39,257 nt of DNA. Origin: Hymenobacter sp. GTDB lineage: Bacteria > Bacteroidota > Bacteroidia > Cytophagales > Hymenobacteraceae. How positions within the stretch are numbered: the first letter of the stretch is position 1; each line of letters begins with the position of its first letter. Positions 15,851-26,448 of this stretch are shown here, one piece after another. The stretch covers positions 1 to 39,257 of the forward strand of contig JANXOE010000024.1 of NCBI GenBank assembly GCA_025353745.1, written 5' to 3'. The notes under the pieces were generated by a model that did no database searches, had not been told where the DNA came from, and saw nothing but the letters and a program-made list of their open reading frames with translations. Position numbers and translations under genes: made by a program.

Positions 15851-16327
15851 ATGGCAACTGCCCTGCAACACCTGAGTACCTACGACGCCTCTTCCTTCAT
15901 CGACATCAGCGAAAAGCGCTTCGGGCTGGTGGTGGCCGAATGGAACACCGAAATCACCGACGTGCTCAGCGCCGGGGCCTACGACACGCTGCTCAAGCAC
16001 GGGGCCCGGGCCGAAAACATCTTCCGCAACAGCGTGCCCGGCAGCTTCGAGCTGACGCTGGGGGCCCAGCTGCTGGCCCAGCACGAAGAAATGGACGCCG
16101 TGATTTGCCTGGGCGTGGTGATCAAGGGCGAAACCAAGCACGACGACTACATCTGCCACGCCGTGGCCCAGGGCCTCACCAACGTGGGGCTCAAGTACAA
16201 CAAGCCGGTGATTTTCGGCCTCGTAACCACCAATACGCTCGAGCAGGCCCAGGACCGCGCCGGCGGCAAGCACGGCAACAAAGGCGTGGAAGCGGCCGTG
16301 GCCGCCATCCAAATGCTGGGTTTTTGA
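15851..16327 (+). CDS. ribH: 6,7-dimethyl-8-ribityllumazine synthase
   Basis: Penultimate enzyme of riboflavin synthesis; it condenses 5-amino-6-ribitylamino-uracil with dihydroxybutanone phosphate. The 158-aa protein has the family landmarks: VVAEWNTEIT near the N-terminus, GSFELTLGAQLL, then DAVICLGVVIKGETKHDDYI including the conserved GETKHD segment, and FGLVTTNTLEQAQDRAGGKH near the C-terminus. Length and order are typical. No other rib genes are nearby. Confidence 0.96.
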   Translation: MATALQHLSTYDASSFIDISEKRFGLVVAEWNTEITDVLSAGAYDTLLKHGARAENIFRNSVPGSFELTLGAQLLAQHEEMDAVICLGVVIKGETKHDDYICHAVAQGLTNVGLKYNKPVIFGLVTTNTLEQAQDRAGGKHGNKGVEAAVAAIQMLGF

Positions 16328-16356
16328 GTAGATGGGCAAAACGGCGGGGCTTTTAT

Positions 16357-16383
16357 TACCTTTACCGGCCCGCGTGAGCGGGC
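16357..16383 (+). promoter_or_regulatory. Possible promoter and leader hairpin upstream of the DksA-like gene
   Basis: TACCTTTA (16357-16364) differs from TANNTTTG only in the last base. A perfect hairpin GCCCGC-GTGA-GCGGGC (16368-16383) follows. The remaining ~120 bases to the ATG contain GGCCG/CGGCC and a CCTGCCC that can pair with GGGCAGG at 16380-16386, so the leader may be structured. Confidence 0.35.
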
Positions 16384-16505
16384 AGGAAAACCAGCCGTGG
16401 GCCGCGGCGTACGGGGGCCGACTAAACTATTTGCCGGCCGTTGCCGTTGCCTGCCCACCCGCTATTTGTGCTTTTAACCATTCTGTCTATTTCCTTTTCT
16501 CTACC

Positions 16506-16889
16506 ATGTCCGACGAAAACGTCCGCTACTCGCGGGAAGACCTGAGCGAATTTGACCAGATTATTCAGGAAAAGCTGATGGCCGCCCGGCGCGAGCTGTC
16601 CTTCATCAAGGAAACGCTGACCCGGCGCAACGATTCGGGCACCGACACGACCGCTTCGTCGGCCAAGGTGCTGGAAGACGGCGCCGACACCGCCGAGAAG
16701 GAAAGCATGAACCAGCTGGCCTCGCGCCAGATGAAGTTCATTCAGCAGTTGGAAAACGCCCAGGTGCGCATCAAAAACGGCACCTACGGCGTGTGCATCG
16801 GCACGGGCAAGCTCATCCCCAAAGACCGCCTGCGGGCCGTGCCCCACACCCAGCACTCCATCGAAGCCAAAATGGCGCGCCGCGACTAA
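16506..16889 (+). CDS. DksA/TraR-family protein lacking the full C4 zinc finger
   Basis: A 127-aa protein with the N-terminal coiled-coil (residues ~10-90, with the acidic DGAD segment at 58-61 at the turn) and the C-terminal DksA/TraR fold (NGTYGVCIGTGKLIPKDRL). DksA binds the RNA polymerase secondary channel and, with ppGpp, adjusts transcription of stable RNA and amino-acid genes. Only Cys97 of the four zinc cysteines remains. The second pair is replaced by H114-T-Q-H117, and position 100 is Thr. This Cys-poor form is common in Bacteroidota, so it is probably functional but may not bind zinc in the usual way. A structured segment with a T-run follows directly. Confidence 0.87.
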   Translation: MSDENVRYSREDLSEFDQIIQEKLMAARRELSFIKETLTRRNDSGTDTTASSAKVLEDGADTAEKESMNQLASRQMKFIQQLENAQVRIKNGTYGVCIGTGKLIPKDRLRAVPHTQHSIEAKMARRD

Positions 16890-16906
16890 GCGACGCTGCC
16901 TGCGGT

Positions 16907-17001
16907 GGTCGGCACTGAATAATTCGGTAATCAGAACGGTTGGCCTGCGCCGACCGGGCAACGCCCCTGACCGCCGGCTATTCAGTGCCGACTGCTTTTT
17001 T
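16907..17001 (+). ncRNA. Candidate structured RNA with terminator, downstream of the DksA-like gene
   Basis: A perfect 14-bp outer stem, GTCGGCACTGAATA (16908-16921) with TATTCAGTGCCGAC (16979-16992), encloses 57 bases and is followed by a T-run (16995-17000). Inside are an 8-bp hairpin CGGTTGGC-CTGC-GCCGACCG (16937-16956, one G-U pair), a GGGC/GCCC hairpin just after it, and a possible TCAG/CTGA stem (16931-16934 with 16967-16970). This is more elaborate than an ordinary terminator. It may be a 3' UTR element of the gene or an independent small RNA. No known family was recognised. Confidence 0.45.
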
Positions 17002-17060
17002 ATTTAACACATACTTCACCACTCGTACCGTAGCGATACGGCACTCAGCTATTGTTCCCT

Positions 17061-19046
17061 ATGGGCAAGCAACATTTTTCGAAAGACAAGAACGACCGCC
17101 GCGGCGGCGCTCCCGGCGGCTTCGGCCGCCCCACTTCCCCGGGCGGTGACCGGCGCTCCGGCTCCGGCGACCGCCCAGGCGGGGAGCGGCGCTCATTTTC
17201 CGGCGACCGGCCGGCCGGCGATCGGCGCCCCAGCTTCGGCGACCGGCCGGCCGGCGATCGGCCGGGCGGCGAGCGGCGCCCCAGCTTCGGCGACCGGCCG
17301 GGCGGCGAGCGGCGCCCTAGCTTTGGCGACCGCCCGGGTGGCGGCAGCCGCGAGCAGGGCGGCAGCGGGTATTCGGCCGGCCGCCCGTCGTTTGGCGGGG
17401 GCGGCAAGCGCTTCAGCGGCGACGCGGAGCGGCGGCCTTACGGCCAGGGCGGCGGCTCGTCGTTCGGGGCGCGGCGCGACGAGCGGTCCGACGCGGCCAA
17501 GGAGCAGCGCACCGGCACCAGCTACGGCCGCACCGACCGCGGCACCGAGCGGCCCGCCCGCGAAGGCTTTGGCCGGAGCAGCGGCGGGGCCGACGAGCGC
17601 CCCGCCCGGCCCTACCAGCCCCGCGAAAACTGGAGCGGCCAGCCCTACCGCCAGGAAGGCCGCCCCGCCGTGCCCCGCGGCACGCCCGGCGAGCGCAACC
17701 GCAAGTTTCAGAAGCAAAGCCCATTCGAATCCAACGAAGGCTCCGCCAGCGTGGGCGCTCCGGGCTTCGGCCGCAGCACGCCCCGCGAGGACGGTGGGAG
17801 CCGGTCCGACGAGCGCGGGCCCAGCCGGCCCATCCGGGCGGCGCGGCCGTTTGACGCCACGCCGCCGCAGCCCCGCGAGGAGCGCGGCGACCGCGAAGGC
17901 GGTCGCGACCGGGGCTTTGGCGGGCCGCGCGGCGGCGAGTTCGAGCGCAAATTCACGCCGGGGGCCTTTGGCCGTCGCGACGGGGCCCCCAGCACCGCCC
18001 CGCGCAGCTACGGCGAGCGGCCGGGCGGCTTCGAGAAGCGCGGCTTTGGCGACCGCGACGCAACGCGGCCCGACGACCGGCCCGAGGCCGATGGCCGGCC
18101 CGCCTTGGGCAAGTTTGCCCAGCGCCGCGAGGAGTTGAAAGCCCAGGAGCGCAGCGTGCGCCGCTCGGGCACCGGCTACGGCACCGCCGGGGCCGGCCAG
18201 AACAACCGCGCCGACAAGCCCCGCTACGGCGAGCGCCCCGGCGAGGCCCCCGACTACAAAAACCTCAAGCACTACGAAGCCGACAAAGACCGGGGCAACA
18301 AGCGCCGCCGCGACCAAGAAAACCAGGACTTCGGCACCGACGAGCTGCGCCTGAACCGCTACATCGCCAACGCCGGCGTGTGCTCGCGCCGCGAGGCCGA
18401 CGCGCTGATTGCGGCCGGTGAAATCCGCGTCAACGGCGAGGTGGTGACCGAGATGGGCTACAAAGTGCAGCCCACCGACACGGTGCAGTACGGCAAAACC
18501 AACCTCAACCGCGAGAAATCGGTGTACGTGCTGCTCAACAAGCCCAAGGACTTCATCACCACCACCGAAGACCCCGAGGGCCGTCGCACGGTGATGGACC
18601 TGGTGGCCAGCGCCTCCAAGGAACGCATCTTCCCGGTGGGCCGCCTCGACCGCAACACCACGGGCCTGCTGCTCTTCACCAACGACGGCGAGGTGGCCCA
18701 GCGCCTCTCGCACCCGTCGCACAAAAACAAGAAAATCTACCAGGTCGAGCTGAGCACGCCCCTGACCGAAGACGACCTGCGCAAAATCGCCGAAGGCATT
18801 GAGCTGGAAGACGGCAAGGCCGAGGTGGACGACGTGGCCGTGGTGGCGGGCAACGCGCACTTCGTGGGCATCGAAATCCACATCGGGCGCAACCGCATCG
18901 TGCGCCGCATCTTCGAGCACCTGGGCTACGAAGTGGTGGCCCTGGACCGCGTGCAGTACGCCGGCCTCACCAAAAAAGACCTGCCCCGCGGCAAGTGGCG
19001 CTTCCTGAACGAGCAGGAAGTGATTCGGCTGAAGTACTTCATGTAG
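17061..19046 (+). CDS. rRNA pseudouridine synthase (RsuA/RluB family) with long Arg/Gly-rich N-terminal tail
   Basis: The C-terminal part is a standard RluB/RsuA-type enzyme that isomerises a uridine in rRNA. It has an S4 RNA-binding domain from about residue 429 (LRLNRYIANAGVCSRREADA), a catalytic domain with Asp530 in GRLDRNTTGLL, and the C-terminal NRIVRRIFEHLGYEV segment. The first ~425 residues are low complexity, dominated by Gly, Arg, Asp, Pro and Ser. Near-identical tandem units of the type GERRPSFGDRPGG lie around 17190-17350. Such RGG-like tails bind RNA non-specifically and can drive condensation. ATG 17061 is preferred over an in-frame TTG at 17052. Confidence 0.9.
   Translation: MGKQHFSKDKNDRRGGAPGGFGRPTSPGGDRRSGSGDRPGGERRSFSGDRPAGDRRPSFGDRPAGDRPGGERRPSFGDRPGGERRPSFGDRPGGGSREQGGSGYSAGRPSFGGGGKRFSGDAERRPYGQGGGSSFGARRDERSDAAKEQRTGTSYGRTDRGTERPAREGFGRSSGGADERPARPYQPRENWSGQPYRQEGRPAVPRGTPGERNRKFQKQSPFESNEGSASVGAPGFGRSTPREDGGSRSDERGPSRPIRAARPFDATPPQPREERGDREGGRDRGFGGPRGGEFERKFTPGAFGRRDGAPSTAPRSYGERPGGFEKRGFGDRDATRPDDRPEADGRPALGKFAQRREELKAQERSVRRSGTGYGTAGAGQNNRADKPRYGERPGEAPDYKNLKHYEADKDRGNKRRRDQENQDFGTDELRLNRYIANAGVCSRREADALIAAGEIRVNGEVVTEMGYKVQPTDTVQYGKTNLNREKSVYVLLNKPKDFITTTEDPEGRRTVMDLVASASKERIFPVGRLDRNTTGLLLFTNDGEVAQRLSHPSHKNKKIYQVELSTPLTEDDLRKIAEGIELEDGKAEVDDVAVVAGNAHFVGIEIHIGRNRIVRRIFEHLGYEVVALDRVQYAGLTKKDLPRGKWRFLNEQEVIRLKYFM
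17140..17355 (+). repeat. In-frame tandem repeats coding GDRPxGxRRPSF units
   Basis: Four to six imperfect copies of a unit of about 30-39 bases (GGCGACCGGCC(G/C)GGCGGCG type) encode repeated GDRP-GGERRPSF segments of the pseudouridine synthase tail. Copy number is likely to vary between strains through slippage (inference). Confidence 0.6.
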
Positions 19047-26337: not shown

Positions 26338-26369
26338 GCGGGCGGTCGGCTTTTTTGCCGGCCGCCCGC
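26338..26369 (+). repeat. GC-rich hairpin with T6 loop (first of an inverted pair)
   Basis: GCGGGCGGTCGGC (26338-26350), loop TTTTTT, then GCCGGCCGCCCGC (26357-26369), 12 of 13 paired plus a G-T. The U-run lies in the loop rather than after the stem. A second, inverted copy lies at 26417-26448. Confidence 0.5.
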
Positions 26370-26416
26370 TAATCGTTGAACCGTGGCCTAACCGTAGCTG
26401 AGGGCCCCGGCGATTA

Positions 26417-26448
26417 CCGGGCGGCCGGTGAAAAAGCCGGCCGCCCGG
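26417..26448 (-). repeat. GC-rich hairpin, inverted copy of 26338-26369
   Basis: CCGGGCGGCCGG (26417-26428), loop TGAAAAAG, CCGGCCGCCCGG (26437-26448). Read on the minus strand it matches the first hairpin closely, including the T-rich loop. It lies 40 bases beyond the end of the small minus-strand gene, so each hairpin faces one of two converging transcripts. Confidence 0.5.

Follow-up and report, generated by a model that had tools for sequence, protein, structure and literature searches.

The long palindrome that follows the dksA-like gene in the 39,257 nt of Hymenobacter sp. contig JANXOE010000024.1 analysed here (the window) is probably the Rho-independent terminator of that gene, with a hairpin that is likely of heptamer-palindrome descent, as judged from comparison with related species. 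Taken alone, a terminator behind dksA would be ordinary. The site is of interest as a worked case of possible terminator origins, in which a palindrome of 7-nt repeats may have been fixed, compensation is found across 22 orthologous rows and another hairpin occupies the position elsewhere. It also illustrates that strong covariation together with a T-run is insufficient for declaring a new regulatory RNA.

In the window, ribH, the dksA/traR-like gene and a pseudouridine synthase gene (rluB-like gene) are all on the + strand, and the element is located between the last two (Table 1). The dksA/traR-like gene scored 52.8 bits against the NCBIfam model TIGR02420 (dksA), which is under the cut-off of 115.5 for that model. 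The pseudouridine synthase gene was above the cut-off of TIGR00093 and under those of the RluF, RluB and RsuA equivalogs. Tandem repeats of 36/51/87 bp were seen in the RG-rich N-terminal part of this gene, at 17138-17343 of the window.

Table 1. Features in and around the element behind the dksA-like gene. Positions are those of the window.
Feature	Position	Strand	Basis
ribH (lumazine synthase), upstream of the dksA-like gene	15851..16327	+	Pfam PF00885, NCBIfam TIGR00114; same strand as the dksA-like gene
dksA/traR-like gene, 127 aa, C4 zinc finger	16506..16889	+	Pfam PF01258 (33.2 bits, above cut-off); translation
Hairpin of putative intrinsic terminator	16904..16996	+	Fold, exact arms, covariation in relatives
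5′ arm, degenerate in the window; its alignment partner in some related species is a four-heptamer arm	16905..16932	+	Alignments, heptad readout
Apical hairpin (16938-16955) and second small hairpin (16956-16966)	within 16904..16996	+	Fold
T-run, six T, completing the putative terminator	16996..17001	+	Sequence; at least four T in 22/22 orthologous type A elements
5′-leader hairpin CCGTA-GCGA-TACGG of the next gene, apart from the terminator	17028..17041	+	64/83 loci exact, 6/83 with compensated stem
RluB/RluF/RsuA-type pseudouridine synthase, S4 domain, long RG-rich N-terminal region	17061..19046	+	Pfam PF00849, PF01479

The sequence-only reading had described a 14-bp perfect closing stem and a T-run at the end of the structure, and both were borne out: the exact inverted repeat GTCGGCACTGAATA occupies 16908-16921 and 16979-16992, and six T are found at 16996-17001. 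The element starts 14-15 nt past the stop codon of the dksA-like gene, which ends at 16889, and lies on the strand of that gene. The MFE of 16904-17001 was −55.6 kcal/mol compared to −32.6 ± 3.3 kcal/mol for 200 dinucleotide shuffles (z = −6.97), none of which was as low (0/200). The energy of the hairpin was put at −53.4 to −55.6 kcal/mol, with the six T at the stem end. The MFE fold consists of an 18-pair outer stem (16904-16921 / 16979-16996) with G-U pairs at its base, which encloses two inner helices as well as hairpins of 7 bp and 4 bp. The opposite strand folds almost as well (−49.9 kcal/mol, z = −6.1), since the element is a palindrome.

A BLAST search showed that the sequence of the element is single-copy in its own genome. 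The window contained no Rfam match at gathering score, and with permissive thresholds the best match on the element reached 11.4 bits against a threshold of 39. No tRNA or tmRNA was found. The site was absent from the output of a terminator scan, the loop limit of which is 3-8. A scan of 16300-17300 revealed no sigma-70-like promoter, in a genus whose promoters are poorly covered by such scans, and TAnnTTTG, the Bacteroidetes −7 motif, was not found in 16600-16905.

Out of 101 genomes of the genus, DNA similarity identified the element in no more than 3, one of them being its own, and the family was therefore traced by means of synteny and covariance models. The best 80 of 483 relatives from a DksA-like protein scan were taken, 78 of which were titled Hymenobacter, and the window, these 80 loci and two further congener loci made up a collection of 83 intergenic regions. 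An rluB-like domain was recognised downstream in 71/83 loci, the other 12 having failed a motif or length test. Two kinds of hairpin were present at the site: type A, to which the hairpin of the window belongs (22 rows), and others that are rich in G+C, for example GCCCGGAC...GTCCGGGC. In 82 of the 83 intergenic regions behind dksA-like genes, at least four T were detected within 6 nt of a hairpin of −20 kcal/mol or lower, the exception being L040 with TTT only. The median start of the hairpin was 18 nt past the stop codon in type A (n = 22) and 19 nt in the others (n = 60). The hairpin sequence at the site thus differs between clades while the hairpin and the T-run stay. Since the hairpin and U-run are kept and the sequence is expendable, this pattern is the signature of a terminator.

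The type A stem was evaluated in an alignment of 21 rows (A2), 20 of them distinct; L028, which has a shorter apical part, was omitted here and retained in the alignment A1. The 26-pair stem had 94.8% of its cells paired, compared to 18-40% when the partner was slid by 1-3 columns. Changes on both sides were found in 14/26 pairs (58 such cells), and 0 of 500 shuffles, which ignore the kinship of the rows, reached any of the five measures used. The covariation proposed as a check was in this way found in the stem, yet it is equally expected of a terminator: it supports the stem and not an sRNA, because a terminator needs its stem too.

The outer and inner stems are preserved in the window and in the five rows closest to it, with 16-17/17, 4-5/5 and 4/4 pairs formed. 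The 7-bp apical hairpin keeps 6-7 pairs among these five rows, and the 4-bp second hairpin keeps merely 2-3/4 pairs in all five. Across the 21 rows of A2, between 1 and 7 of the 7 apical pairs of the window can form, a count that varies with the alignment, and an apical hairpin of their own, with a different sequence, is predicted for a number of other type A rows. The multi-branched RNA that had been proposed is therefore found in the fold of the window but not in the family, where the branched tip is not kept. G52 and C58 (window row) are the only nearly invariant apical columns, and all other invariant columns belong to the stems or the T-run. The apical part varies, and no conserved unpaired seed beyond these two columns was found in the type A alignments. 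The loop, the conservation of which had also been put forward as a check, is accordingly largely unconserved.

It is unlikely that the element is a small RNA, either cut off from the dksA 3′ UTR or separately transcribed, which would act in trans and perhaps take part in the stringent response. The very stable, conserved and T-run-ended structure is of sRNA size, the paired cores TCGGTA and TCAGA/TCTGA are nearly invariant in type A, and the two nearly invariant apical columns would also fit such an RNA. However, there is no conserved unpaired stretch usable as a seed, the apical part is rewritten even among the nearest relatives, and in other species the sequence is wholly replaced while a T-run hairpin remains. 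With unconserved branches, no Rfam match and no promoter motif found by scans that cover this genus poorly, the stand-alone sRNA or elaborate regulatory 3′ UTR of the sequence-only reading is not supported. What stands of its structured RNA of interest is a T-run-ended, covarying structure that is kept across species behind the dksA-like gene.

A separate hairpin in the 5′ leader of the rluB-like gene, located 19 nt ahead of its start, is a better riboregulator candidate than the element on the dksA side. Among the 83 loci, 64 had this hairpin exact, 6 had an unchanged GCGA loop on a compensated stem, 7 had it replaced by a different, likewise conserved 29-mer and 6 were without either. The exact 14-mer was present in 49/61 genomes (once in 48 of them, twice in G017) and absent from 12, and a reversed-pattern control gave 0; the position before the rluB-like gene was seen at the dksA-side loci. 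The 6 compensated versions all belong to one clade and may represent one event. The GNRA loop and the compensation argue for an RNA element, possibly a cis-regulatory one. A role of this hairpin as target mimic of helix 18 of the 16S rRNA was considered and dropped, as the letters common to both are no longer present in the 6 compensated versions. At 7/83 loci (L027, L029, L033, L036, L050, L077 and L082) the invariant sequence GCGCCGGCGGCGCGGGACTATAAGCCAGC was seen in place of the leader hairpin upstream of the rluB-like gene.

The conserved leader hairpin beside the start codon is also the strongly conserved part of the setting in which the dksA-side hairpin might act as a cis-acting attenuator, where conditional read-through would control the downstream rluB-like gene. 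The two are on the same strand, the distance from the T-run to the start codon is 59 nt, and no promoter-like site was found in between, which weighs little in a genus poorly covered by such scans. The sequence of the terminator is, however, replaced between clades, which would hardly be tolerable for a switch, and we regard this explanation as still less likely than a small RNA.

If the element is the terminator of the dksA-like gene, the following course of events may be depicted. The polymerase that leaves the dksA-like gene would transcribe a long self-complementary pair of arms, and the closing of the basal stem at the U6 run would release the transcript and split dksA from the rluB-like gene. 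The terminated transcripts would be that of dksA and perhaps that of ribH-dksA, and the stem would also cap the mRNA and shield its 3′ end. A stem of about 26 bp exceeds the need of a terminator, and the element may have a further function as well.

Four tandem heptamers, e.g. GTAGTCG GTATTGA GTAGCCG GTAGTCA, make up the arm of the hairpin in certain related species. The 22 type A 5′ arms, which were gathered by position and not by motif, displayed a pooled lag-7 identity of 0.44 (z = 10.3, a value that overstates independence as the rows are related). Taken singly, 6/22 arms were at z of at least 3, namely L007 (3.5), L012 (4.4), L016 (5.0), L020 (3.6), L028 (4.3) and L031 (5.5), and those of L025 (2.6), L038 (2.3) and L019 (2.0) and the other 13 (0.1-1.6) were under this value. 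The arms of the window copy are not significantly 7-periodic (z = 1.2-1.3 on the 5′ side and 1.0 on the 3′ side), and values of 1.2-1.4 were obtained for the five relatives nearest to it. Matches of at least 20/28 in 800 kb away from the dksA site numbered 19 for the L020 arm (mean 0.175 and maximum 2 over 40 mononucleotide shuffles) and 19 for the L031 arm (shuffles: mean 0.075, maximum 1), and in the same test 14 for the L012 arm (mean 0.525, maximum 3). The arm of the window had no such match in the 800 kb. Because tandem 7-nt units are not recognisable in its arms, the window copy was filed as a probable descendant of the heptamer palindrome family and not as a member. Its probable heptad ancestry is judged from the alignment with its orthologs, its own arm having neither significant periodicity nor such matches.

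The covariance model of type A (R1) had matches at E ≤ 1 in 59/120 congeneric genomes, with up to 21 in each, a number that includes dksA sites and counts a palindrome on either strand. Forty dispersed loci were hand-picked from the listed R1 rows, several of which are mutually orthologous, so that n = 40 overstates independence. The 40 arms, all found with the type A model, read as four 7-nt units GTNNTNR followed by GA and had a lag-7 self-identity of 0.66 (z = 26.7). One of these loci (L129) is the dksA site of G070, the same as L028, and was kept in this lag count and dropped from the T-run count (n = 39). At least four T were found in 22/22 type A elements compared to 10/39 dispersed heptad palindromes in match orientation (search windows of 12 and 15 nt) and 0/39 on their opposite strand. 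The U-run therefore belongs to the dksA site.

A mixed model (R2), for which 37 candidates per Hymenobacter genome (a ceiling on the number of matches) and 15 per Bacteroidota genome were scored, had matches at E ≤ 1e-3 in 115/120 Hymenobacter genomes. In the Bacteroidota it matched 82/296 genomes, Hymenobacter members included. Heptad-like sequences served to train both R1 and R2, and the matches of these models are not independent evidence of heptads. Among the loci outside Hymenobacter, the 17 for which DNA was obtained each had lag-7 periodicity in at least one arm, and periodicity at another lag was found in none; as the best matches of a heptad-trained model, they show the existence of such elements outside the genus and not their abundance. 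Weaker R2 matches included non-heptad palindromes (L212:15781, L219:1241 and L220:19417). In the genome to which the window belongs, R2 matched the window, C37 (E = 1e-6), C31 (5e-5) and C205 (1e-4), and the 5′ arms of C37 and C205 had lag-7 z values of 4.8 and 3.5. In contiguous sequence, strong R2 places numbered 3 for G029 (200 kb) and 6 for G074 (400 kb), and by extrapolation the heptamer palindromes number tens of copies per genome.

A model-free scan for palindromes with arms of at least 24 nt and at least 80% complementarity covered 800 kb, consisting of 200 kb of G029, the syntenic 200 kb of G111 and 400 kb of G074. Synteny guided the choice of the stretches from G029 and G111, whose R2 matches were known beforehand, and that of G074 is a block from an R2-rich genome; the stretches come from hit-bearing genomes, and the palindrome density is therefore valid for such genomes. 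Among the 165 palindromes detected, arms periodic at z of at least 3 were found in 26 at lag 7, 7 at lag 8 and 1-3 at each of the lags 3-6 and 9-12. Leaving out the redundant G111, 22/126 were periodic at lag 7. The heptad units included GTTGTCA, GTAGTCR, GCTGTTA and GAATTAT. Heptamer palindromes look like a sizeable class of Hymenobacter intergenic sequence, amounting to about one sixth of the long palindromes in the 800 kb from three genomes. A second abundant palindrome family, GTCATTCTGAGCG...GAAGAATCTCGC and variants, was seen in L187-L226 (G029, G111 and G074), e.g. at L220:19409-19501. With a loose pattern, the motifs of this family were present in 18/37, 18/39 and 38/89 palindromes of the G029, G111 and G074 stretches, respectively.

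The phylogeny of the site was based on a tree of dksA-like and rluB-like DNA encompassing 70/83 rows, made by quick search with SH-aLRT as the only support values. The rows left out were 12 that lacked the rluB-like motif or had less than 500 nt of it and one more that was too short, and 17/22 type A rows were placed. A single clade of 24 rows (SH-aLRT 99) contains all 17. Three is the minimum number of changes of hairpin type on the tree, and the supported branches alone force one. A single gain and two switches to G+C-rich hairpins (L024 and L026; L010, L014 and L021-L023) could account for the three. The history of the site may then be traced as follows: the terminator hairpin of the ancestor from which one subclade of Hymenobacter descends would have been, or have become, a palindrome of four heptamers, (GTNNTNR)x4, sharing its origin with the copies of the dispersed family. 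Thereafter this palindrome would have drifted with compensatory changes, in the window past recognition as heptads, and G+C-rich hairpins would have replaced the heptad-derived one in two sublineages. The direction of change may also have been the reverse, with a plain terminator being converted toward heptads in some species by dispersed copies.

A neighbouring intergenic region, between pdhA and a TPR gene, was compared through a 3′ anchor that was present in 77/80 loci and in the window. A palindrome of GCTGTTA heptads was seen by eye in this region at 11 loci, among them L020 and not its sister L025 (SH-aLRT 98). Comparison of L020 with L025, at about 1250-1370, showed that relatives without the heptad palindrome have an unrelated, shorter sequence. 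The pdhA alleles of L020 and L025 share no sequence, with a local score of 5 against a shuffled mean of 6.7, and the scores were 66 for L020/L019 and 44 for L025/L007. A clean insertion with target duplication was rejected for this region, as the L020 and L025 alleles share no sequence, and the pdhA/TPR-gene intergenic regions look as if they were exchanged as whole alleles and not changed by insertion. Least likely of all, the element behind the dksA-like gene is a palindrome of the REP or MITE kind that is still mobile, or was so until recently, and is found here by chance: heptad-armed dispersed relatives do occur in most Hymenobacter genomes searched and weaker ones in its own genome (C37, C31 and C205), but the sequence has one copy and no near-identical copies there, the site is common to 22 rows with drift and compensation, and neither a clean empty site nor a target duplication was seen, the sister alleles at pdhA sharing no sequence.

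The terminator of the dksA-like gene, as we read the element, resembles intrinsic terminators in its G+C-containing stem, closed at a U-run shortly past a stop codon. It differs from them in the stem of about 26 bp with its large apical domain and in the heptamer arms of some relatives. In Neisseria, inverted pairs of the uptake signal, a 10-12-mer, serve as terminators. These pairs are alike in that a dispersed short motif forms terminator hairpins when inverted, and differ in not being heptamer ladders.

Among systems with 7-nt units, GGGAATC heptamer arrays are reported in Xanthomonas at 183-186 per genome, mostly with four units (PMC4692102). According to the same report, potential stem-loops are formed by (GGGAATC)n in 70 and 75 convergent pairs per genome, the arrays are located close behind stop codons with an average of 28 nt to the 5′ neighbouring ORF, and in RNA-seq data transcript starts or stops are more frequent at the G4-forming set than they are at controls (PMC4692102). 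The 7-nt units, mostly four per array, and the stem-loop pairs behind stop codons are shared with the Hymenobacter palindromes (PMC4692102). The Xanthomonas repeats are, however, G-rich and were studied as G-quadruplexes, whereas the unit described here is GTNNTNR and occurs in Bacteroidota, where one copy seems to have become fixed as a terminator and to drift with compensatory changes. In the P6b stem of the Nostoc tRNA-Leu(UAA) intron, degenerate TDNGATT or NNTGAGT motifs are described, one class being replaced as a block by the other (PMC4476775). NNTGAGT is a rotation of GTNNTGA, and the stem is built of a 7-nt motif as in the heptad family, but it is part of a group I intron and not a terminator (PMC4476775). 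Direct repeats of TAACTGA are reported from Beggiatoaceae, cyanobacteria and five Bacteroidetes, where they are intergenic and mostly near start codons (PMC4679880). Reverse-complemented to TCAGTTA and shifted in phase to GTTATCA, the TAACTGA unit fits GTNNTNR; these repeats differ in being direct and not inverted and in their position mostly near start codons (PMC4679880). The word Hymenobacter is absent from the main text of that study. Among the top-ranked matches of the open-licence literature, we found no published account of inverted heptamer repeats in Hymenobacter and none that matched palindromic, hairpin or intergenic heptamer repeats of this kind.

More tentatively, the heptamer-ladder palindromes might constitute a Bacteroidota-wide intergenic class that is kept by copying or conversion of 7-nt units, provides preformed hairpins time and again and is domesticated as terminators or mRNA caps, a proposal that we consider doubtful at present. 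If it were true, terminators would be turned over by the swapping of whole intergenic alleles and not by point change, and the dksA site would exemplify such domestication in a single copy that is fixed and drifting.

Two further inverted repeats were seen in the window. The one at 2728-2832 has 40-nt arms that are 85% complementary and a spacer of 25 nt, and by eye it is like the GTAGAGACGCAT...GCGTCTCGTCGTTG palindromes of G074, in which genome 7/89 palindromes contained GAGACGC or GCGTCTC. The other, at 26339-26447, has 37-nt arms located 35 nt apart, with a T-stretch within the arms. Both are longer than the 14-bp perfect repeat of the element behind the dksA-like gene.
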